The notes under the pieces were generated by a model. The model saw only the letters and a list, made by a program, of their open reading frames with translations, made no database searches and was not told the DNA's origin. Shown piece after piece: positions 25,664 to 54,076 of a stretch of DNA of 64,000 nucleotides. Origin of the DNA: Bolinopsis microptera. Taxonomy: Eukaryota > Ctenophora > Tentaculata > Lobata > Bolinopsidae. The stretch spans positions 16,145,919-16,209,918 of the forward strand of contig NC_087076.1 in the NCBI RefSeq assembly GCF_026151205.1. The letters run 5' to 3'. Both the position numbers and the translations under genes were made by a program. Each line of letters opens with the position of its first letter. Position 1 is the stretch's first letter.

Positions 25664-27028
25664 ATGTCTGGACTCGTAGAGATGGAAAAGAATCTGAAGG
25701 AACTGGCAGAAAAGAGTGAGCTAATTTTGGATGAGATGGTGGAAATGAAAATGGAAATGAAGAAATTAGACTCGGATGATGATAAGGATCAGATAAAAGA
25801 AAAGAAGGTGGAGTTGTTTGATTTGAGCGAGAAGAGAGAGGAGTGTTTGAGCAGAGTGAGAGAGTTGGAGAGAGATATGATCAAGTGGAGACAGGACGCA
25901 GAACTTGAGCGAGAGGGATTGATGAGGGATCAAGAAGTAAAGTTGGAGCACACGAGCAACTTATTTCAAGAAAGAGTGAGAACTACTGAGAGTGATGATT
26001 TGCAACCCGGAAATACAGAGAGAGATAAGGGAGTATACACGATGAAGTGTAAGGCGCCTAGGTATAGGAAGAATGATGACTTTTGTACATTTTTACAGAG
26101 ATTCGAGCAATGGGTCCTGTTATGCGGAGTAAAGGACAATCTAGACTTGAGGCTAGCAAATCAGATAGAAGACGATGCAAAGTTCAAGAAAGTCAAGAAC
26201 ATTCGGCTGTTGAGTGAGGAGAGAGGTGACGTGAAAATGCTGATCAGTGCGGTGAAACGAGAGCTATATCCCGCTACTGATGCGAGAATTATGAGAACAA
26301 CGTTTCACAAGATGAGACAGGAAGCGTTAGAGAGCGTGGAGCAGTTCGCAGAGAGAATACAGGACACTGCTGAGAAGATTTACCCGAGAGCTGTGGAGAG
26401 AGAGAGTGCAGGTATCACTGTGTTGATACAGGGCGTGAGAGACCCTGCTATTAAAAGACGGCTCCTTCAGATGAACACGGAGACAGAGGATTTTGATAGT
26501 GTGATCCGTTTAGCTGTACAGGAGGAACACATATCCAAGGCAGTAGAGGGAGAGCTTGACAGTGATCCAATAAATACACTGGAATTCAGGGCACCTACTT
26601 ATGGTGTTGGCAGGCAAGGTGAGAAAGAAGAGGATGAGAATGACTGTCAGATGTGTGGGAAGAGGGGTCACAAGGCTGACTCGTGTTGGAGCAACATTGT
26701 GTGCCAGCTGTGTGGAGGTAAAGGGCATGTTGCCAGTGTTTGCAGGAGTAGAGTGAGTCAGGTTGAGCAGAGTAGCAGAGGTGCGAGTAGAGGTGCGAGT
26801 AGAGGGGCGAGTGGAGGTGCGAGTAGAGGAGAGAGTCGCAGGCCATTGATTTGTTATAATTGTCGCGGTGAGGGACACATTCAAAGATTCTGCAACGTCG
26901 ACAGAGGGCGATCTGGAGGACGAGGAGGGCAGCACAGACCCACAGAGACTGAACAGTATGGTATGCAGAGAGACCATTTAAACGGGCGTGCGACTGGACA
27001 AAATCAATTCCCCGTCAGTCGCAATTAA
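25664..27028 (+). CDS. Gag-like protein with three zinc knuckles
   Basis: A 454-residue intact frame. Residues 1-105 are charged and likely coiled coil. Residues 125-300 look like a retrotransposon gag core (RTTFHKMRQEALESVEQFAE region). Three CCHC knuckles follow at about 328-341 (CQMCGKRGHKADSC), 347-360 (CQLCGGKGHVASVC) and 397-410 (CYNCRGEGHIQRFC), with an Arg/Gly/Ser-rich stretch between the second and third. Such proteins bind and package element RNA. No protease, reverse transcriptase, RNase H or integrase follows: only ~215 bp separate the stop from the second direct repeat. It appears to be a gag-only, non-autonomous LTR-type retrotransposon; a domesticated gag gene is the alternative. 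Confidence 0.8.
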   Translation: MSGLVEMEKNLKELAEKSELILDEMVEMKMEMKKLDSDDDKDQIKEKKVELFDLSEKREECLSRVRELERDMIKWRQDAELEREGLMRDQEVKLEHTSNLFQERVRTTESDDLQPGNTERDKGVYTMKCKAPRYRKNDDFCTFLQRFEQWVLLCGVKDNLDLRLANQIEDDAKFKKVKNIRLLSEERGDVKMLISAVKRELYPATDARIMRTTFHKMRQEALESVEQFAERIQDTAEKIYPRAVERESAGITVLIQGVRDPAIKRRLLQMNTETEDFDSVIRLAVQEEHISKAVEGELDSDPINTLEFRAPTYGVGRQGEKEEDENDCQMCGKRGHKADSCWSNIVCQLCGGKGHVASVCRSRVSQVEQSSRGASRGASRGASGGASRGESRRPLICYNCRGEGHIQRFCNVDRGRSGGRGGQHRPTETEQYGMQRDHLNGRATGQNQFPVSRN

Positions 27029-34892: not shown

Positions 34893-35593
34893 AATTTATC
34901 AAAATTTTCAAATGAATTACTTACTTCCGACTAACGATTCAGGACGAATCCAATCTTTATGAATTCGATTCTTCTCCATATACACACGTAATCACCCCTT
35001 CACAACATCATCCCCAACTGAAGACGATTTACACATGTATTTTTAAAACTACTGCTGAACAAACATTTCTTATCACTTATATTGATGCTTTTCATACACA
35101 CAAGTTAAAACAAATTCTTTATGTCGTGCATCCTGGGTTTGGACAGGATATGCCCGCTTAAAATACTTCCATCGCATTACACTACATAATTCTCAATAAA
35201 TGTAATAGTTTAAAACAATCAATTAATTTAAAACAATCCCCCAATGTTCATATACACATTTCGACTTACTATAATTAAGGACACATTTAATCTTTATGAA
35301 TTTGACTCTTCCCCATTTAAACAAATTTGGAGGAAATTCGTGTGTACATTTTTCAATCACTGGAAATTTCGTCGGAGTTTGTTGTTTGATATTGCACGAT
35401 ACAGTTAAAATCATTATTATATTACTATAAACAAAAGCCCTGCAATATGAATTTGCATTAACGACGTTCACAATCTTTGCAAAATATTAATAAATTTTAA
35501 TAGTATTTTAGATTTACTGTTCAGCTATATTTATATCTTAATTACAAATCTGAGTCATTAATCTCATTATATTAATTTACATATCCTCAGGTG
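34893..35593. other. Intergenic / 5' region of CLPTM1L
   Basis: AT-rich. A segment near 34925-34990 (AATCTTTATGAATTCGATTC) is echoed near 35288-35320 (AATCTTTATGAATTTGACTC), so a degenerate tandem duplication is present. TATCCTCAG|GTGATG just before the CLPTM1L start looks like a 3' splice site, implying a non-coding first exon further upstream. Confidence 0.5.
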
Positions 35594-37364
35594 ATGAAGC
35601 TTTCATCGATACCATGGGGAAACATAGGTTTGGGTTTATTTGTTCTCTACATTCTGAACTCCGTGAATGTTTTTTACACTTTGTACTACCCTCGCCTGTG
35701 TAATGAGGAATCAGAGTCATGCTTCTCTGCAGCGTTTGATGACAAAACTTTGTATGACTTCTACGTTGTTGCTTCCACCGATTCTTATAACCTGCAGTCC
35801 CAAAATATCATTGTTGGAAAGAAGAATGTACAACTATCTGTTGGTTTCGAAGAAATTGTCACAATCGATCTTGATAAAAAGTTCTTGAAGAACAACACTA
35901 TTTTTGGGCATGTTGTAGTTGTTAGAGCAGGAACAAATCCAATGTCAAAGAACATAGTTTCTGGCCATTACACCACATCATTGACGTCATTCAAGGTAGA
36001 AGAGATTGTTAGAATCAATCTCATGGAGGCAGTAAGTGCTAAAGACAACTCCACTGTCATCGCACATTGGAGGCCACGCCTAGCAGCTCACATATTGGAT
36101 CCTGCTCTTAAATTTGATGGGAAAGAGTACCCAGGAGAATTTAGAAGGATGATGAACAAGAAAAGCATGACCTACAAACCTGTGCTCTATGTTGATCAGC
36201 TTAGTCAATCCAGACGATATGACACATCTCTAGGCTCAGGTGCTGTTAATCTTACTGTTTCCTTTACTCCCATTACTATTGGTAAGCTCAGAATATGGAT
36301 GCAGTTTGAGGAAGCAATTCGAAATCTCAAAGAACTCGGATTTGGTGAAAATGACATTGATGAAATCAAGGGTATATTCACAGACACAAACATGTACTTC
36401 CTGACACTTACATTCTTTGTGACAATCTTTCATCTTCTGTTTGATTTCCTTGCCTTCAAAAACGATATTAGTTTCTGGAAAAATAGGAAAAACACAGCTG
36501 GATTAAGTACACGAGTAATAATATGGCGATGCTTCAGTCAGGTCATCATCTTCCTTTATCTCTGTGAGTTCAAAACATCTTACATTATCCTTGGTCCTGC
36601 TGGGGTCGGAATGTTCATAGAGTTGTGGAAAGTTTGCAAATCTCTAAAGTTTTCATTTGTTGGGGGTAAAATGCACTTTGGAGAAAAGTCAGAAGAGGAA
36701 AAAGCAACAGAAAAGATTGACAGTGAGGCTATGTGGTACTTGCAATGGTTGATGTACCCTCTTATACTTGGGGGCGCTGTGTACTCACTGCTTTATGTTC
36801 CTCAGCGCAGCTGGTAAGTATTACATATTGTTATCATATTATTATCATATTCTTATATATATATCTTCAGGGGCTATCCCGTAGTAAACCATGTTTAACT
36901 GAATACAATATTAGTAAGCCCCATGCCAGTAATCATTTGTAATAATCTTACTTAACACTAATTTAAATTAGGCCCAACTGCCTGTTTGTTGTTTTTTCTA
37001 AAAGATTCCAATTTATAGGTACAGTTGGGTGATAAACAGTCTGGTGAACGGAGTGTATTGCTTTGGGTTCCTCTTCATGACCCCTCAACTCTTCCTCAAC
37101 TACCGCCTCAAATCAGTTGCCCACCTACCTTGGAGAGCTTTCATGTACAAGGCATTCAACACCTTTATAGATGATGTGTTTGCTTTTATAATCGTCATGC
37201 CAACTGCCCACAGACTCGCATGTTTCAGAGATGATATTATCTTTGTGATCTATCTTTACCAGCGCTGGCTGTACCCTGTTGATAAGGCTAGGGTTAATGA
37301 GTATGGGCAGGTATTTGATGAGACTGAGACTGAAAATGCTGTGGAAGAGAAAAAGGAGCAGTAA
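35594..37364 (+). CDS. CLPTM1L: CLPTM1L (CLPTM1-like / CRR9), two coding exons
   Basis: Coding exons 35594-36813 and 37019-37364 join in phase 2 (CTG|GTAAGT ... TTATAG|GTAC), giving 521 residues; human CLPTM1L is about 538. Hallmarks are HWRPRLAAHI, GKLRIWMQFEEA, DEIKGIFTDTNMYFLTLTFF, FHLLFDFLAFKNDISFWK and the block FNTFIDDVFAFIIVMPTAHR, then YQRWLYPVDK near the C-terminus. Residues 10-30 form a signal-anchor helix; several membrane helices lie in the C-terminal half. In mammals the protein is an ER membrane scramblase implicated in moving glucosaminyl-phosphatidylinositol during GPI-anchor synthesis. ATG 35594 gives an N-terminus collinear with the human one. The frame is intact. PRRC1 follows 0.75 kb downstream on the same strand. 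Confidence 0.95.
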
Positions 37365-38110: not shown

Positions 38111-41100
38111 ATGTCAGATGCAGAGGTTGAGGAACTAACTGGAAGTATGGCTGCTGCAGCTGTGAAAACATCCCCTAAACTTGCTAACAGACCTGCTTCT
38201 CCCATAATTGATATATACGGGGATGAGGAGGACTCTTTTGACCAAGGAGGAAACATAAATGTAAGTTTGATCAATAAATGTAAGTTTAATCAATGAATGT
38301 AAGAGTACGTTTAGTTCAATATGATCAGATATGCAAGAATATAGAAGTAATGAATCTTATATTATTTCATCTAAATTTTTTCCTGGCTCTTTGCCAGGAC
38401 CAACTTCACAATGAGTATGTTGACAATTTGACGACCGACCATGTCTGGTTTAAAAGTATGTATGTTTGATAGTAAATAGTTTAACGTATTATATAGCAAA
38501 GTATCTTGAACAATCAACAAGCACAATCCCAACACAACAAAACTATTTTAAAAGTTTTACCGGGAGTTTCACAAAAAAATGGCGCAAGATTGAGGCCCGA
38601 ATAGTTCCTAGTATCATAATAATACCTCTTGCCGGGCAGGGTGCCCCTATATAATACTGGGGACGATTATAATCCACCAAGATTACTATGTACTAAGTTT
38701 ATAAAATGTTTCGCATATTATTCCGACTGATCGCACATTCTTCTGGAACCTTCGGTAGAACATAAAATACTTAATAACATTCAGTTGTTAAACTATTTGC
38801 TGATAAGGCACTAGTCTAGACTAGTTTGTGCAGTATAAGTGCTCATTATTTTGATTTTACGACTTTGAAGATGTTTGACAAGTTGTTTGTTTCTCTGAAC
38901 TCTATAAAGCGATCTACAAACTACTTATATAATTGAAGTTACGACTGAGACTAGAATCAAAACATCATGGAAACTAATGTGAGTGTTATGCAAGTGTTAT
39001 CATAACAGTACATCGGAATCACATAACACGTGATCCCGCTGTACCGTCCACATTTTTGGAAAAGTTCTGGCATAGTGTCCTATTATACCGAGCATAGTAT
39101 TTCAGCTCAAACGCCTTGGCTCTCGGCCATGTTTTGTCTCCCAAGATGGTACGTGTAGGAGACAACGTCTGAATTAAAAGCGTGATCCTTATCTCTGTTC
39201 CCGAAATGAAATTATGGAATTAAGGAATGACTGGGACCAATATTTCTAAATTTCTTTCAAGTATTTAAATCTGTATTCTAATATTTTGATTTAAAATAAC
39301 GGCCTGTTGCATTTTAAAAAGTCGTAAATCTATCGCCTATATTTTTGTTTTAATCTGCTGACGAAAGTGTTACCTGATGTTACCTGTCTGTATGTCATCT
39401 GCAAGTCTCAAATTTTAAATACGGCAATGTTATACGACCCAACCGGACCCAACGTATGTACATTATACATTGACCTCTTGCACTGTACTAGTCGTTAAAT
39501 GTTTTAATTTCTTCGCATAGATTATTATAACGACGATGATTAAGCTAGGTTATTACTGTTTTGACAATGTATTCAAATACCAGTATCTGTTATAGCAAAT
39601 AAGTAAACTCATAGTTTCAACAAGCACAATATCAAACTGAACACAGCGAACTACGTGGTGGTATTATATATTAAAATCATACCGAAACCCCACAAGAAAC
39701 ATCAAGTAATTTAGAGAGTGTTAAAACGAGGGTTCCAACAATTATCAGACCAGTTCCTGCCAGAGAAAGAACCTCCACCCGCTCACTGAATACAACAACT
39801 TGAACCAGGAACGCTAAAACAGTATCGAAATTTCTCATCAGGGACACGGTTGCAGTCTTCTCATAGGACAGTCCCCTGTTAAGAGCTAGGACACCAGTCA
39901 CGTTTAGAAATCCTGAAAGTAGCATCAAGAAGCGAGGAGTGTAGCAGGCGGGGTTAATGTATGAATCCCCAGATACTGTTTGGAACCCTAATCCTCCGAG
40001 ATCTCCCGCAAAAACCATGTACACTGAAACTGTGACATAGTTGACTCCTTTACCAATTTTTCTCTGAACTGTGTAAGCTGCTGCCATGTTAACTGCCCCT
40101 ATAATCGGCACCAAGTTGTAGTACCACGGTGCCGCCTTGTCTGCATCGCCATGGAATAAGAAAGTAGGCTTGGCGATCATAACTATTCCGAAAATTCCAA
40201 GCACCATTGCTATGATTTGGGGAAGGGTCAATTTCTCTTTCAAGAATATTCTACCCAGAATGCAAGCAAAAACTGGCGATGCGAATATGAGAGCTGTAGC
40301 ATCTCCTAAAGGAAGATTTTGGTAACTCCAAATTTTGGCCAGCCGGACCACCACACTGAACATGACTCTAAAAAATAGCAGTTTCTTCAAAGGAAACTTG
40401 GTGAGAGAAATGCCTTGAAAGGTGACAAGCACGAAGAATAACAGTAGGGAATATGTGCACGTTATTATGATAAATTCCCCGGTAGGGATGTCCTTTAGAT
40501 GCTTTGTGATGACTCCCTGCGACACAGAACATAAAATACATATCAATATTAATCCAATCCCTTTGGCCCGATTTCTGATCGATGTTTTTTCCTCGCCAGA
40601 CGCTTCCTTCAGGATTGTTCCCTGTTCCTCTAATTCATCTTCTTCTTTCGTACTATCCTCTAAATCTACCGATTTGAGTGATTGTGATTGTTTTGATAGT
40701 CCAGCATTATTTCCCGTTACATCTCCATTGTTCATTGCAACAGGATTAACGACGACAAGTCCTCCGTGAACGTCTTCAGTTTCATTATTATTTCTTGAAG
40801 AAACATTTATCATCTCAACTTCAGCATCATTTCCCGCACTTAATACTAGGGGATTACTTTGAACGATGCTGCTGTCCTCGCAGTTGGTAGTTGTGGCGGG
40901 AGTCATGTTGTTATCGTGTTTCTGGTTTACCTGTGAGTTGGTATGATGGTAAGGTTACTAGTAGTAGTTACTAACCATAGTAACCGTTACTACATAATAA
41001 AATACAAACATTGTAGTTGTAGTTCAGCGATAGAACTATTTTAAAGGCGCTTGTGGATTTTTTGGCACAACGAATTTCCTGGTTAACAAGCAATAATATA

Positions 41101-48009: not shown

Positions 48010-51000
48010 ATGGTTTTACCTGACGGCCTCGGTATTGATCTTGATGAATTGGATGTTTCCCACTTGGATGTAAAACCAATTCCCAATTATGCGTAAGTAT
48101 CCAATCTTAAAAGCAAAAACATTTCCGTTATTTTGTTAATGTTAGTTCAATTATATTTACATCACCATTACAAAGAACAAGTTGCGTGCCAAAGTCTTGC
48201 TAAACCAGTACATCAGGGCTATAATACTGGTTTAGCAAGCCACAGTCTGATGCAGGAAGCACCCATAAAAAGTTGATAGTAAATTAGATATTAGAGAGCA
48301 GGGAATATGTTTTTAAATGTTCCGCTTTGGCATAAAACTAACCATTTCTTGTAGTATCGTCATTTCGCCGCGAAATAGTGGCTATATCTAAAATGGGCGG
48401 CCACACGGTAGATAATCCGTGAGTCTTTACTCTTTAGACTAGATTATGTTATTATTTACCTGCTTGCAGTTGCAATTTCTTTAATTCTAATATCTTTCCC
48501 ACCCTGGGATTTTGAGCTGTTTTGACCGAAATTCTTATTTGCAGAGAACCTGCGAAAGTAGCTGACCAAAGTCAACCACACGATCATCTTGACATCGAGG
48601 AGGGAAGTGATGAAATCCTCTCTGCCTTGGGGTTGGCTTTAAAACTTCATTTTTATGTCTGATCTTATATCTGCTAGACTAGGACTGATTTTTATATTCA
48701 TCCATTTGACCTTATAGTTATAAAAAGTTGATAACACTTCACAGAAGGTCTGGAGAAGGTCGGTCACCAGTTCTACGCGATAAGTCGCGTGGACAGCAGT
48801 TAAGCTTCAGATATTCATAGGCTATATTTGTACCCCGGCCAATTGGCAATTAATAGTGACGAAAGCCAGCAACACCTCAGTCGGTCACCAACATAGTATA
48901 GTAAACTGTGGACAATGTTAACATTTGCCGAAGTTGAAAACATCGCGCGTCGGATGGGTCACATTACAAATATCAAAGAATCAATATTAAACCAGATCAG
49001 AAGTTGGGGAAGTTGAGATAAACGAAGAACTATTGGAACCGTTCTACGAGGACAATGAGATTGACGTGTCCAAGTTCATATGTGGACTACTCGATAGGGG
49101 TCTGCAGCCACTGAGTGATCCTCGATTCAAGACCATCATCAACAAGTGAATTATTCTTTCTTTATTTGAAAATGAAATTCAAGTTGCAAATTTGAGCACC
49201 TTAATCATTAATTAAGCTCGATAATAATATCCCAGTTGGAGCATTTGTCAACCATATTAGGAAGAATCCTGAATAGTGAATGGAATATGGATCGTGTTTA
49301 AATGTATGTAATATTTCAGGATGAAATCATTCAATACCAGTGATGATGGAAAAACCATGCCAGAAACTATGCTACCGGAAGATTTCAAAAAGTATGTATT
49401 TAAGGATTTAAAATTTGAATGTTGATCTACAGCAACATGAGTGAGATCAAAATAGTTGTCCGTTAGAAGATGTTTCCTGCTAAATAATATTAAAACTGAA
49501 AACATGTCCCCACTCGGCAGTCGGCACTCTCCTACCACAAGGGTGGGCGGAGATTATTATATTCTCCATTAACAATTAAAATCCAACCCAGTTTTAATTC
49601 AAAAACACGTCCTGACCTCTATCTCCTATAGATCAGAATAACAAGTGAACCCATTGCAGATGTTTGGCCTCCAACATGGTGTTTATCCAACAGGCTCTAT
49701 CTGGCAACATGATAGTCCCTGACTGGAAGAGGTTTTCTGGCATGATCTCTGATATTTTCGAGCAGTGCAGACCCGGAGATTTTGGCGAGGTTGGGTCTTT
49801 GAGTTTTTGTTTCAAATTGGTTTTGGTTTAATCATCTTAAAATTAATATGTCTAAGTTCAATTAGGATAATTGTTCATTATGTATTTTCAACATTATTTT
49901 CAACATACTCTTCTATTACATGTACTATTAAATTAATGCTCATTTGTGCTCCGATTTGTCCATGATATATCCTACACAACTTCGTTGTCAACTAGGTAGC
50001 TAAGCTAACTGCGCAGCTCCGCAATGTTAACCCTGACGGTTGGGGTATATCTGTCTGTACAACTGACGGACAACGGTTAAACTTAGGAAACTTCGACACC
50101 AAGTAAGTACCAGCGATGATGCTGTGCTGGTGATTTCGAATACCTTAATTCCCAAAAATTTGGGCGACAAAAAATTTGAGCGGGCCTCTCGCCCAAATTT
50201 TTTGCAGACCAAATTAATTGCATAAATCTTTTCCGTCTACTAAATTTTTTGCTAACCAAACTTTTGGCATTTGGCCTGTGGCCCTGAAATCTATAGAAAG
50301 ATGGCTTTTTCTTCATATCCAAGTGAAATAATATTTGAAATTTTAGTTTTCTAATCTGTCATTCATGGCTTGACCAAGTAAAAAGGCTTATATTTTAAAT
50401 GAATAGAAATAACTGGGATAGCTAACAGCTACTAATAAAACAAATGGCTAGAGGTACGGATAGCTAGAGATTTAAACAAGATCTGCAAATGGATTATCAT
50501 CTACCGTAAAGTCTGATCTACAAGCATCAGTTATACCCGACTTCTCAAAGCCTTTCCTTATGTCATCTGGCCTCCGTTTTAAATATACAAAAAGTTCGTT
50601 GATCCAACGAACGTGTACTTCACGGATCACTGTCAAGCGGGTATCAATTTTCACATTGTCTGATGAAACTCCTCCATTGAGGATCTAACTGAAATTTTAG
50701 TGGAAAATCGTTCATTTTTCGAAGAATTTGTGCCCAAATTTTCGGTCGCCCAAATGAGTTCAAATTTTCTGCCCAAATTTTTCGGGCTCAAATAAATTGT
50801 GCTCAATATAATGGCACACAAATTTTTGGGAACTAAGGTATTTAAAATATTTTATCAGAAAATACGATTATTGATGAGCTCTGAATGCGCTATGCTTTTA
50901 CACCTATCAGAGTTTTCCACGTTTACTGAGATTGATGGCGTATATAATCGCGCCCGATTGGTCTCCTTTGAGACGTCCACGAACGCCTGCTCCGCGAACG

Positions 51001-53973
51001 CCTGCTCCGCGAACGCCTGCATAACATCCCACCTAAAACCCAGGTTTCCTCTGATGGACTTTAGTCGAGTCCTCCTGTACTGTATCGTTTGCAGCGATAC
51101 GTCTGGTGATTATGTCCACAAGTACATCGGCAAAGAACCTAGTGGGGGCAGCGCTGAGGCTCTTACTCTTAAAGATAGTTTGTACTAAATTCACTATCAA
51201 TTTCATTATTTACTCTGATCATCAAAATTAATTAAGATCATCATTCGGCATCATAGTTATTATGGAACATGTTTCTGCTATCTTCACTTGCCGGAATATT
51301 AAAACATTATCTGGTCATTATGGTTTAAGCCCTGAATTACACTTACCAGAGATGCCGCACAACCCACTGCTTATGACTGGTGGAGTGACCCTTACTTCTC
51401 TCATGAAGCCAACTTACTGCTTCTCCGAGCGGTTCGAATATTTCTCTCGAAAGGTTCAGGGGTGAGAAAACTTTAACTATCAAATCATTAACACGTGACT
51501 GGTTATTGGTTAAGTTATGACACGTGACCTTCAAAGAACAAGAAAAGTAGCTCATGTTTTACTTTGAAAACATTTAAACCGTTTAATATGTTTATGACGA
51601 TTGTCCTTGTTTCCTCAGGTTTGCTGGGAACGACTACATAGGTTTCAACAACTCTCTCTCCCTAGCACTGAAGGACCACTCCAACAGACTCTACGCTATC
51701 GGACACTTCCTTAAAACTAACAAATGTCTTAATAAAGACGCCCCTGTGAGTCTCAAGATCATGATTATTTCATTTATGTTTAGATTTATTTAATGGACTT
51801 ATGAGCTAATTTTGGTAATTTTTCATGAGTTACCTGAGCTTACTTTTCGCCGTTTTAAACGGGGAACGACACTCGATGTCCTCAACCCTAAAATTCAGTA
51901 GATCGTCAATAAACAAATTTTACATACACTAATTAATTGCCATTATTATCTTTCAAGTCGCATTAACTTTATTTTCATTTTCTTCACTCAGATAGGTAAT
52001 CTTAACATTAGTTTTATTTATCTTTCATTCTTTGATTGATTTTGTCTTCTTGCAGACATCCAATGTGCGTGCACAAATTACGTTACGGTTCTTTCCGTAA
52101 CGCTGGGTAAGAATTTCTTGTTAAATGGATGTTATTCTCAGAAGAGGATTCATGGAACGCTTTCAATACTACAAAAATCACTGAACAGTCTCCTTTTCAT
52201 GTATTTAACTGCTCATCCTATTTGTTCGGGGTTAACAATTACATACACTTCATAAACTTTATGTTACTTCTCCACGGAGAAATACTTCTCGCTGAACTGC
52301 AACCTGCTTCAGTGCTCACTGCTCACTTATACTCTCACTAGGTACTACTGGAGGAGTTAACAGAACTAACTATCCACTTCTCCTCAATAGACGCAACTTG
52401 TTCTAGTGGCAGTGTCATCGCTGCTACTCTCGCTAACGGAGGAATCTGCCCCTTAACAGGTTCCCTGACGGGCATACTTTATATTGGGAGAACATCTTGT
52501 CATTAATTAATTAGAAAGTTGTACCGTATATGAGATAATAGTGAAGGTGACAACTTTTAACACTTATAATTCAGGGGAAAAGGTGGCACTTCCGGATGCA
52601 GTCAGGAACTGTCTTAGTATAATGAACTGTTGTGGAGTTAACGATTACAGCGGAGAGTTCATGTTTGAGGTCAGAAAGTTTTCAGACGCTCTGTTCCTTC
52701 ATACGAGAAAAAAAAAACATTTTGTTTCAATTATCGAAGAGCGAAAATGCTTGATAAATTAACGATAATCTATTTCTATCACCCAGGTGGGACTGCCAGC
52801 AAAAAGTAACCAGTCAGGGGCACTAATGTTAGTTATACCTAACGTTCTGGGAATGTGTATCTATTCTCCACGTCTGGATAGCAGCCAAAACTCCTCCCGC
52901 GCTGTTAAATTCTGTAAGGTACGGACACTTGAATCGCTTGTTCAGTGCACTGGTGAATTATGGTGGAGATCGGTTCCTAATCTTGTTGCTGGTCGACTAG
53001 ATTAATACAATTTTGCTTTACAACATATCTTGTTTCAGTCACAAAACCCGTTACCCACGAATATTTCCAGAAACTTCTGAGCACGAACAAATTTCAAGCG
53101 AGTTATCTTTCAGCTGTTCACGGAGAAGTTTACGTTCCACCAGTTTGACCCCTGTTCCACAGCTAGTGCTCTCAGCGATAAGTGGGACCCTAGACGGCAG
53201 GAGTTCTCCGAGAGTAAGGTATCCAATTGAATAATGTCCCATACTTTTCACCTACCGTCTTTTTTTGGAACATTTCCTTGAATGATCGATTTGAATTAGC
53301 ATAAATGATAAATGTTAATAAAATACAGATGGGAGCCAGATCTCCATCACTATAACACTTTACAACAGGAGCAACAGAACTTAACGTTGCTATTCTCCTC
53401 GTTTGAGGGGAAGATGACCACTCTCTACCGGTACCTGAAAGAGGGCGTTAACTTTGATTTCCCTGACTACGACGGTAGGACTGCTATCCATCTAGCTGTT
53501 TGTGGTGGTAAGTAAATTAGTTGCTTGTAAGTTTTAGTTTTAATTCTTTCTTAGTTTTTAGAGTCTAATGGATTTTCCTGACAGTAGCAGTAAGGTTTTA
53601 ATTCAGTTTGCATTAAATCTGATGTAAAGCATGGAGCAGTTCTTTAAATTATAAGGTCAAGTTAGTTGTCTCTCTTCAGGTCAGATTGAGGTTATCAAAT
53701 TCTTGGTTGAGAAATGTAAAGTCTTCATCAACCCGCGTGATAGGTCAGCATGATTTCAATCAATTCGGATACAAAATATTTTTACTGGGATATGAATAAC
53801 AGCCGTTTCATTTTCTCAATACTTTATTTTCTTTTTTCCTTTTTTAAATACTTCATTGTCTTGACAGGTGGCAAAGCACCCCATTGGACGATGCTAAAAA
53901 GTACAACTATGAAGAAATCGTAGCCTACTTGCTCCAGCACGGAGCTAAACCAGGTACCGAAATGAAGGAGTGA
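48010..53973 (+). CDS. GLS-like: Glutaminase-family pseudoenzyme, 17 exons
   Basis: Exons 48010-48092, 48545-48631, 48745-48783, 48996-49145, 49320-49391, 49660-49789, 49996-50102, 51044-51177, 51350-51461, 51619-51745, 52342-52459, 52575-52669, 52787-52918, 53114-53218, 53369-53507, 53680-53743 and 53868-53973 join in phase to 599 residues. The fold is that of animal GLS: a helical region, the glutaminase domain ([56 protein letters not shown]) and two C-terminal ankyrin repeats ([33 protein letters not shown]). By alignment with human GLS every active-site residue is changed: Tyr249 Leu, Ser286 Asp, Lys289 Arg, Asn335 Met, Glu381 Leu, Asn388 Leu, Tyr414 Thr, Tyr466 Asn, Val484 Gln. No glutaminase activity is expected. 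The N-terminus is acidic with no mitochondrial presequence. The 13-codon exon 48745-48783 may be optional. Confidence 0.88.
48196..48239 (+). repeat. Perfect 15-bp hairpin in intron 1 of the GLS-like gene
   Basis: CTTGCTAAACCAGTA (48196-48210) and its exact complement TACTGGTTTAGCAAG (48225-48239) flank a 14-base loop. It lies in the 452-bp first intron. The stem is shorter than a usual animal pre-miRNA. Confidence 0.8.
50143..50838. mobile_element. MITE-like element in intron 7 of the GLS-like gene
   Basis: The left end CCTTAATTCCCAAAAATTTG and right end CAAATTTTTGGGAACTAAGG are inverted repeats with one mismatch, flanked by TA on both sides (50141-50142, 50839-50840). Subterminal GCCCAAATTTTT motifs occur many times in both orientations. 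Length is about 696 bp with no transposase. TA duplication suggests a Tc1/mariner-related, non-autonomous family. Confidence 0.75.
52054..52106 (+). other. Exon-like segment not used in the GLS-like model
   Basis: TTCTTGCAG|ACATCC and GCTGG|GTAAGA bound a 53-bp segment, but reading in from exon 51619-51745 gives a stop after 14 codons. Skipping it restores a phase-perfect join to 52342. It also contains a CGTTACGG...CCGTAACG hairpin. It may be a cassette with a premature stop or chance. Confidence 0.3.
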
Positions 53974-53993: not shown

Positions 53994-54076
53994 GTCACGT
54001 GGCAAATGAAGGAGTGAGCTGTTTGTCACGTGACTTTCAATCCACGTCACGTGACTTTCAATCACGTCACGTGACT
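53994..54076. repeat. CACGTG-rich degenerate repeat 3' of the GLS-like gene
   Basis: Several GTCACGTGAC(T) motifs separated by TTTCAATC-type spacers directly after the stop codon. A related small cluster (CATCACGTGGTTCGTCACGT) lies at 54607-54640. Same core as the arrays at 3944 and 11854. Confidence 0.8.

Follow-up and report, generated by a model that had tools for sequence, protein, structure and literature searches.

A glutaminase-family gene in the 64-kb window

The window analyzed here, a 64-kb stretch of the 264.7-Mb assembly of the ctenophore Bolinopsis microptera (C5:16145919-16209918), contains a GLS-family gene on the plus strand at 48010-53973. We built the exon chain of this gene, hereafter the window gene, by hand and with a custom-written spliced protein-to-DNA aligner, and obtained a final model of 576 codons in 16 exons with no internal stops. 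An earlier note on this DNA had counted 17 exons and 599 codons, figures that the rebuilt model replaces; its assignment of the span to the GLS family, with an open frame throughout, was borne out by Pfam and by the stop-free model. Homologues in the spliced alignments support exons 3-16: the Mnemiopsis protein P0001, used as template, aligned to the window DNA as 13 exons (4-16), and template P0003 added exon 3, which the aligner started at 48996 or 48997 versus 49001 in the model. Exons 1 and 2 had no homologue match in these alignments and are proposed from the open frame and splice dinucleotides only. Residue positions were assigned by alignment to GLS2, with the numbering checked letter by letter. 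The features of the window are as follows.

25664..27028, +, gag-like frame of 454 codons that matches the zinc knuckle zf-CCHC; a probable retroelement
35591..36817, +, long open frame matching CLPTM1 (E 3e-99)
39677..40906, -, long open frame matching an EamA transporter (E 4e-24)
48010..48092, +, exon 1, proposed, with the start ATG of the earlier note (open frame and donor GT only)
48545..48606, +, exon 2, proposed (open frame and AG/GT borders only)
49001..49145, +, exon 3, EF-hand_14-like N-domain (spliced alignment to P0003 and P0046; Pfam EF-hand_14)
49320..49391, +, exon 4, where the deposited Mnemiopsis P0001 begins (spliced alignment)
49660..49789, +, exon 5 (spliced alignment)
49996..50102, +, exon 6, start of the Glutaminase domain; Leu at the Y249 position in the lid loop (spliced alignment)
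51044..51177, +, exon 7, SCVK replaced by DFSR; S286D at 51057-51059, K289R at 51066-51068 (spliced alignment, tblastn)
51350..51461, +, exon 8, VNAGA replaced by LMTGG; N335M at 51373-51375 (residue alignment, tblastn)
51619..51745, +, exon 9, E381L and N388L within a ten-residue segment (spliced alignment)
52342..52459, +, exon 10, Y414T (spliced alignment)
52575..52669, +, exon 11, Y466N in CGVNDYSG (spliced alignment)
52787..52918, +, exon 12, V484Q within a ten-residue segment (spliced alignment)
53114..53218, +, exon 13 (spliced alignment)
53369..53507, +, exon 14, first ankyrin repeats (spliced alignment; Pfam Ank)
53680..53743, +, exon 15, ankyrin (spliced alignment)
53868..53973, +, exon 16, ankyrin and stop codon (spliced alignment)

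Several other pieces were considered for the exon chain and rejected. A candidate exon at 52056-52106 contains a stop in the frame left by the preceding exon and was skipped by the spliced alignments, and an 18-nt exon (50595-50612) and a 20-nt exon (48938-48957) were each proposed by the aligner from a single template. The exon 13/14 junction of an earlier 584-aa model was replaced after comparison with the Mnemiopsis protein. Tandem repeats lie in the intron directly upstream of exon 7 (three 15-bp copies, 50976-51020) and directly after the stop codon (a 21-bp repeat, 54025-54076).

A Pfam scan, which used the 584-aa model (it differs from the final one solely at the exon 13/14 junction), matched the entire Glutaminase profile PF04960 (positions 1-286 of 286, E 9.6e-74, 248.6 bits against a cut-off of 27), together with EF-hand_14 and Ank_2. 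The last of these matches corresponds to the C-terminal ankyrin repeats that had been described in the earlier note, and the scaffold motifs that it reported as kept beside the active sites are likewise present. The window gene is by these domains a member of the GLS family by descent. Its best solved relatives by sequence are GLS2 and KGA.

The GLS fold that the earlier note had also claimed stands as a prediction, made on the Mnemiopsis orthologue P0001. An AlphaFold2 model of P0001 built from a 24-row alignment had a mean pLDDT of 83 and a pTM of 0.71, and Foldseek ranked KGA and GLS2 first among its structural matches (best E 1.2e-34). Superposed on full-length KGA and GLS2, the model gave TM scores of about 0.6-0.67 with a high rmsd of 8.4-10 A over the whole chain, and on GAC and other ankyrin-free GLS entries it gave TM (target) scores of 0.75-0.79 with an rmsd of 4.2-5.7 A; across the 50 matches listed, identity was 39-42% and TM 0.61-0.79. 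The window protein is thus predicted to keep the GLS fold.

Active site of the window protein

We take the GLS pocket to be formed by Tyr249, Ser286, Lys289, Asn335, Glu381, Asn388, Tyr414, Tyr466 and Val484, with Ser286 and Lys289 as the catalytic (SxxK) pair. In the window protein these positions read L, D, R, M, L, L, T, N and Q: the catalytic pair is replaced by Asp and Arg, and none of the seven other residues is kept, so that all nine differ from GLS, just as the earlier note had claimed. Its reading of SCVK as DFSR was found in exon 7. Its reading of VNAGA as MTGGV, with Asn335 changed to Thr, requires correction: VNAGA aligns to LMTGG, and Asn335 is therefore replaced by Met (some paralogues have Leu here). 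The other replacements that it listed were correct.

The earlier note had named transcripts using an alternative exon with SxxK and VNAGA as a finding that would speak against it. We looked for such an exon in the DNA. Spliced alignment of a canonical GLS2 query to the window gene chose the same exons 7-12. In tblastn of four canonical segments against the whole 64-kb window (E up to 50), every segment matched exon 7 or 8 best, and no further match had an E below 0.016; no other exon bearing SxxK or VNAG was seen. Judged by its residues, the window protein is very probably not a working glutaminase.

Glutaminase loci across the Bolinopsis genome

A search of the Bolinopsis genome with PF04960 returned at least 41 exon-level matches, which we assigned to at least 16 loci. 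Besides the window gene these are L009-L023, 15 in all, with L014 and L015 counted as one gene, L014_15, and L021 as two, L021a and L021b. What had been presented as a single odd gene is instead one of ten among these 16 loci in which the catalytic Lys is absent, and one of the nine members found of the clade described below; in six of the ten the Ser is gone as well. All nine pocket residues are kept at six loci (L016, L017, L020, L021b, L022 and L013), and all of these but L013 combine the full active site with an open model. The search for a catalytic paralogue that the earlier note had proposed thus yielded five copies with apparently intact sites, which are possible partners in the same genome.

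Among the other loci, L021a keeps four of the nine residues, L018 and L019 three each and L012 two; L010, L011 and L014_15 each keep one, V484, and L009, like the window gene, keeps none. The window gene is followed, about 40 kb downstream, by L009 in the same orientation. L013 (C5:7843500-7851500) keeps its active site and has a frame break near the position of GLS2 residue 234, and is either a decaying gene or an assembly error. An apparent SxxK loss in L013 was discarded, as it came from a model bridging the frame break; SVTK is kept by tblastn. At L023 (C6:12005500-12012500, minus strand), which consists of one long open frame, SCSM stands at SxxK, and this Lys-to-Met change is the sole loss among the nine residues; L023 is a second, separate candidate pseudoenzyme. 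Three tandem GLS genes lie at L021-L022 (C11:281000-292000), two of them one-exon models with full active sites and the third a four-exon model with SLRD replacing SxxK. L018 (C1:1.99 Mb) and L019 (C1:7.75 Mb) are very divergent GLS-like frames and have the longest branches in the first of our two trees.

A nine-member ctenophore clade

The window gene groups with L009, L010, L011, L014_15, the Mnemiopsis proteins P0001 and P0005, and P0002 and P0006 in a clade that has a support of 100/98 whether the nine active-site columns are included or removed. Its sister is L012 (100/100 with these columns in, 99/98 with them out). The first tree included L013 and the second did not. On the second tree, the fewest changes needed are one loss for Ser286 and three for Lys289, the latter count being only approximate because of the long branches in this tree (L018, L019, L012, L021a and L020). 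The most clear-cut separate loss of the Lys is that of L023, which groups within a set of intact copies.

P0001 is the orthologue of the window protein: 435 of 478 residues (91%) are identical, and 25 of the 43 differences fall among the 305 residues of the Glutaminase domain. At eight of the nine pocket sites, Ser286 and Lys289 among them, no clade row has the GLS residue, and six sites are fixed to one new residue throughout (Y249L, S286D, K289R, E381L, N388L and Y466N). The clade is not uniform at V484 (retained by four of its nine rows), Y414 or N335.

To set these changes against the rest of the protein, we compared columns across 26 aligned rows: a "catalytic" set of 11, picked for keeping the nine residues, the nine clade rows, and L013, L023, L021a, L018, L019 and L012, which belong to neither. 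In the clade, 46 of the 75 columns invariant in the catalytic rows were unchanged, 18 were variable and 11 had switched to a fixed new residue; six of these 11 switches fall in the active site. Columns lost in every clade row numbered 8 of 9 in the pocket and 8 of 66 elsewhere. The corresponding Fisher P values for enrichment of change in the pocket, 6e-6 and 1.6e-4, are descriptive, since the pocket columns and the catalytic rows were both chosen with the active site in view.

The domain architecture is kept in P0001-P0006 and the window protein, except that EF-hand_14 is missing from P0001, a record that begins at exon 4. The close gene numbers of the two Mnemiopsis members (G010086 and G010093), whose contigs are equal in length, together with the position of L009 on the same strand about 40 kb from the window gene, suggest a conserved array in Bolinopsis and Mnemiopsis. 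P0002 (1967-bp contig, 557 codons) and P0006 (1894-bp contig, 571 codons) each have an unbroken frame and appear to be spliced transcripts.

Three protein searches, made with chosen queries rather than as random sampling and each returning the best 120 of about 8,000 scored candidates, gave 303 distinct proteins among the matches listed. By pairwise alignment, 287 of them keep all nine residues. The clade members P0001-P0006 make up six of the 16 that do not; near-identity to our models indicates that P0003 and P0004 are the deposited versions of L009 and L011. P0218, 95% identical to L023, carries the same Lys-to-Met change, and P0222 has Lys-to-Asn and N388T; the remaining eight keep the Lys and have one to three changed sites or a single site that falls in an alignment gap. 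Both Mnemiopsis-named proteins among the matches listed lack the active site. With L012 as query, the Bolinopsis protein P0121 was the only ctenophore-named orthologue among the best 120 of about 8,000 candidates, an absence of others that means little, as P0001 and P0003-P0005 were missing from the same matches. Two further matches are recorded as observations: in P0140, a GLS of the annelid Dimorphilus gyrociliatus, the catalytic Ser aligns to Ala and the Lys is kept (a candidate change), and P0076, named "MAG: glutaminase A" of a cyanobacterium, has EF-hand and ankyrin domains as in animal GLS, which could reflect contamination, transfer or an ancestral architecture.

Selection on the clade

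We estimated dN/dS with a custom Nei-Gojobori script using the Jukes-Cantor correction for 11 of the 16 loci (all but L013, L018, L019, L020 and L021a). Of the ten pairs among the five Bolinopsis clade genes, five were computable and gave values of 0.05-0.24, all of them between paralogues and none with the window gene. The lowest were L010-L014_15 (0.050; dN 0.067, dS 1.36) and L011-L014_15 (0.053), followed by L009-L011 (0.087) and L009-L010 (0.113), both at near-saturated dS. The most recent pair, L010-L011 (dS 0.09), gave 0.236, a weaker constraint than in the older pairs. Comparison pairs gave 0.123 (L021b-L023) and 0.092 (L021b-L017, at dS 2.8). Between the window gene and its clade paralogues, dS was saturated and dN was 0.30-0.33; differences from L009 by codon position 1/2/3 were 154/121/334, a pattern such as purifying selection would give.

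Aligned to the orthologous Mnemiopsis protein, the window DNA showed no stops, and the models of four Bolinopsis clade paralogues were likewise stop-free. The earlier note had held that a dN/dS near 1 with broken frames in relatives would undermine it; in these comparisons we saw no such frames, and a dN/dS near 1 is contradicted for five of the ten clade paralogue pairs only. Neutral decay would not be expected to leave an open frame over the supported exons, an orthologue of 91% identity and one set of odd residues shared by all eight nearest relatives. By their sequences, the clade paralogues appear to be maintained by selection, and for the window gene the 91% orthologue suggests the same indirectly. 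The selected, non-catalytic GLS derivative that the earlier note proposed therefore stands in its core, on open frames, fixed residues and paralogue dN/dS; the regulator, decoy or filament roles that it attached are ones that we can only infer.

Filament interface and possible roles

According to the available parts of a study of GLS filaments (PMC10912226), GAC and GLS2 work as filaments whose interface includes F355, F373, F378, D412, Q416, N375 and Q379; the activation loop has F/Y318 and K320, the lid has Y249, and Lys-to-Ala changes in the activation loop give enzymes independent of an anionic activator. In all nine clade rows, R387 and the interface residues F355, F373 and N375 are unchanged, and the acidic character of position 412 is preserved by Glu. 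Position 379 is Leu in the clade, as in every aligned row but bat GLS2. All nine rows also have Ser or Ala for F378 and His for Q416, so mixed filaments may be weaker. F/Y318 is changed to Ala or Gly and K320 to Ala throughout, the latter being weak evidence because only one of ten non-vertebrate rows keeping the nine residues has Lys at K320. The parts that lock the substrate are thus gone and the assembly surface is partly left, a combination that, on these sequences, favours an assembly role, either with catalytic paralogues or alone.

Our preferred reading, to which we give a probability of roughly 0.47, is that the window gene encodes a non-catalytic GLS-fold protein that would join the animal's catalytic glutaminases in mixed assemblies and serve there as a regulatory or scaffold subunit. 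Glutamine hydrolysis would have been lost: with Asp-x-x-Arg where Ser-x-x-Lys stood and a pocket made hydrophobic by Leu and Met, glutamine would not be held. The protein could still be incorporated into GLS tetramers or filaments as a subunit that tunes their activity, whether by activating or by inhibiting.

A real but lesser possibility is that the clade works alone, as a ligand sensor with a rebuilt D-x-x-R/Leu/Met/Asn pocket or as a homomeric scaffold with a plugged core and docking partners on its ankyrin repeats. Six pocket positions each hold a single new residue across the whole clade, which is what a new binding site or a packed core would show. The ankyrin repeats have also been retained, and the clade-wide changes at F378 and Q416 could separate these proteins from catalytic GLS. 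Against this reading, V484, Y414 and N335 vary, so that the clade does not share one uniform new pocket. The same fixed residues bear on the improbable reading that Asp286 and Arg289 serve an active enzyme in a new amidohydrolase or transferase reaction. The catalytic pair has indeed been replaced by polar residues fixed in all nine rows, but Y249, E381 and N388 have become Leu in every one, and we know of no enzyme with D-x-x-R at the GLS catalytic place.

A relic on its way to a pseudogene would fit the decay seen elsewhere in the family (the frame break of L013 and the very long branches of L018 and L019) and the lack of homologue support for exons 1 and 2. We nevertheless consider it quite improbable, given that no stop interrupts the exons with homologue support, that the Mnemiopsis orthologue is 91% identical, that dN/dS is low in the five of ten clade paralogue pairs that could be computed, and that P0002 and P0006 have uninterrupted frames in what seem to be spliced transcripts. 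It is scarcely credible that a faulty exon model created the apparent pocket loss and that a catalytic exon is spliced in: the exon model of the earlier note did contain doubtful pieces, but the GLS2 query picks the same exons 7-12, the 64-kb window showed no second SxxK/NAG segment, and proteins predicted from another species carry the same residues.

The ctenophore glutaminase expansion

Glutaminase makes transmitter glutamate, on which the ctenophore nervous system is thought to rely. A 2016 review (PMC4685580) counts, in the parts available, eight GLS "enzymes" in Pleurobrachia and nine in Mnemiopsis and links them to glutamate signalling. This "glutaminase expansion" is very likely the same family as the at least 16 loci of Bolinopsis. 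The available parts of the review treat all members as glutamate-synthesizing and contain no mention that we found of lost active sites, whereas 10 of the 16 Bolinopsis loci lack the catalytic Lys. Much of the published expansion may thus be non-catalytic. If most such genes lack the catalytic Lys, as in Bolinopsis, then gene counts overstate the capacity to make glutamate, and the expansion needs a different explanation.

In domain order (EF-hand_14, Glutaminase, ankyrin) and in several kept filament-core residues, the window protein resembles metazoan GLS (KGA/GAC) and GLS2; it differs from them in lacking SxxK and the seven other pocket residues, and the clade differs in having Ala or Gly at Phe/Tyr318. 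A parallel in kind is Arabidopsis PDX1.2, described as a non-catalytic pseudoenzyme paralogue, kept across a clade and regulating its pathway. Its family and pathway are unrelated, and the regulatory role considered here is a proposed one. In the parts seen of the literature listed on glutaminase and pseudoenzymes, on ctenophore glutaminase and on inactive glutaminase (the last related to CPS1), we found no description of a GLS-family pseudoenzyme; no paper was listed on ctenophore pseudoenzymes.

More broadly, and with more doubt than conviction, we suggest that ctenophores turned most of their glutaminase radiation into non-enzymes, a layer of regulators (mixed-filament subunits or amino-acid sensors) controlling glutamate supply, with one old clade bearing an Asp-x-x-Arg pocket and the catalytic Lys lost again elsewhere in the family. 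The clade also offers a natural experiment on GLS filaments, in which the scaffold is apparently under selection without catalysis. From the residues, it likely encodes conserved non-enzymes, some of which are named glutaminases in databases: P0003 and P0004 are publicly annotated as "glutaminase kidney isoform, mitochondrial-like", an annotation that is likely wrong as to function.
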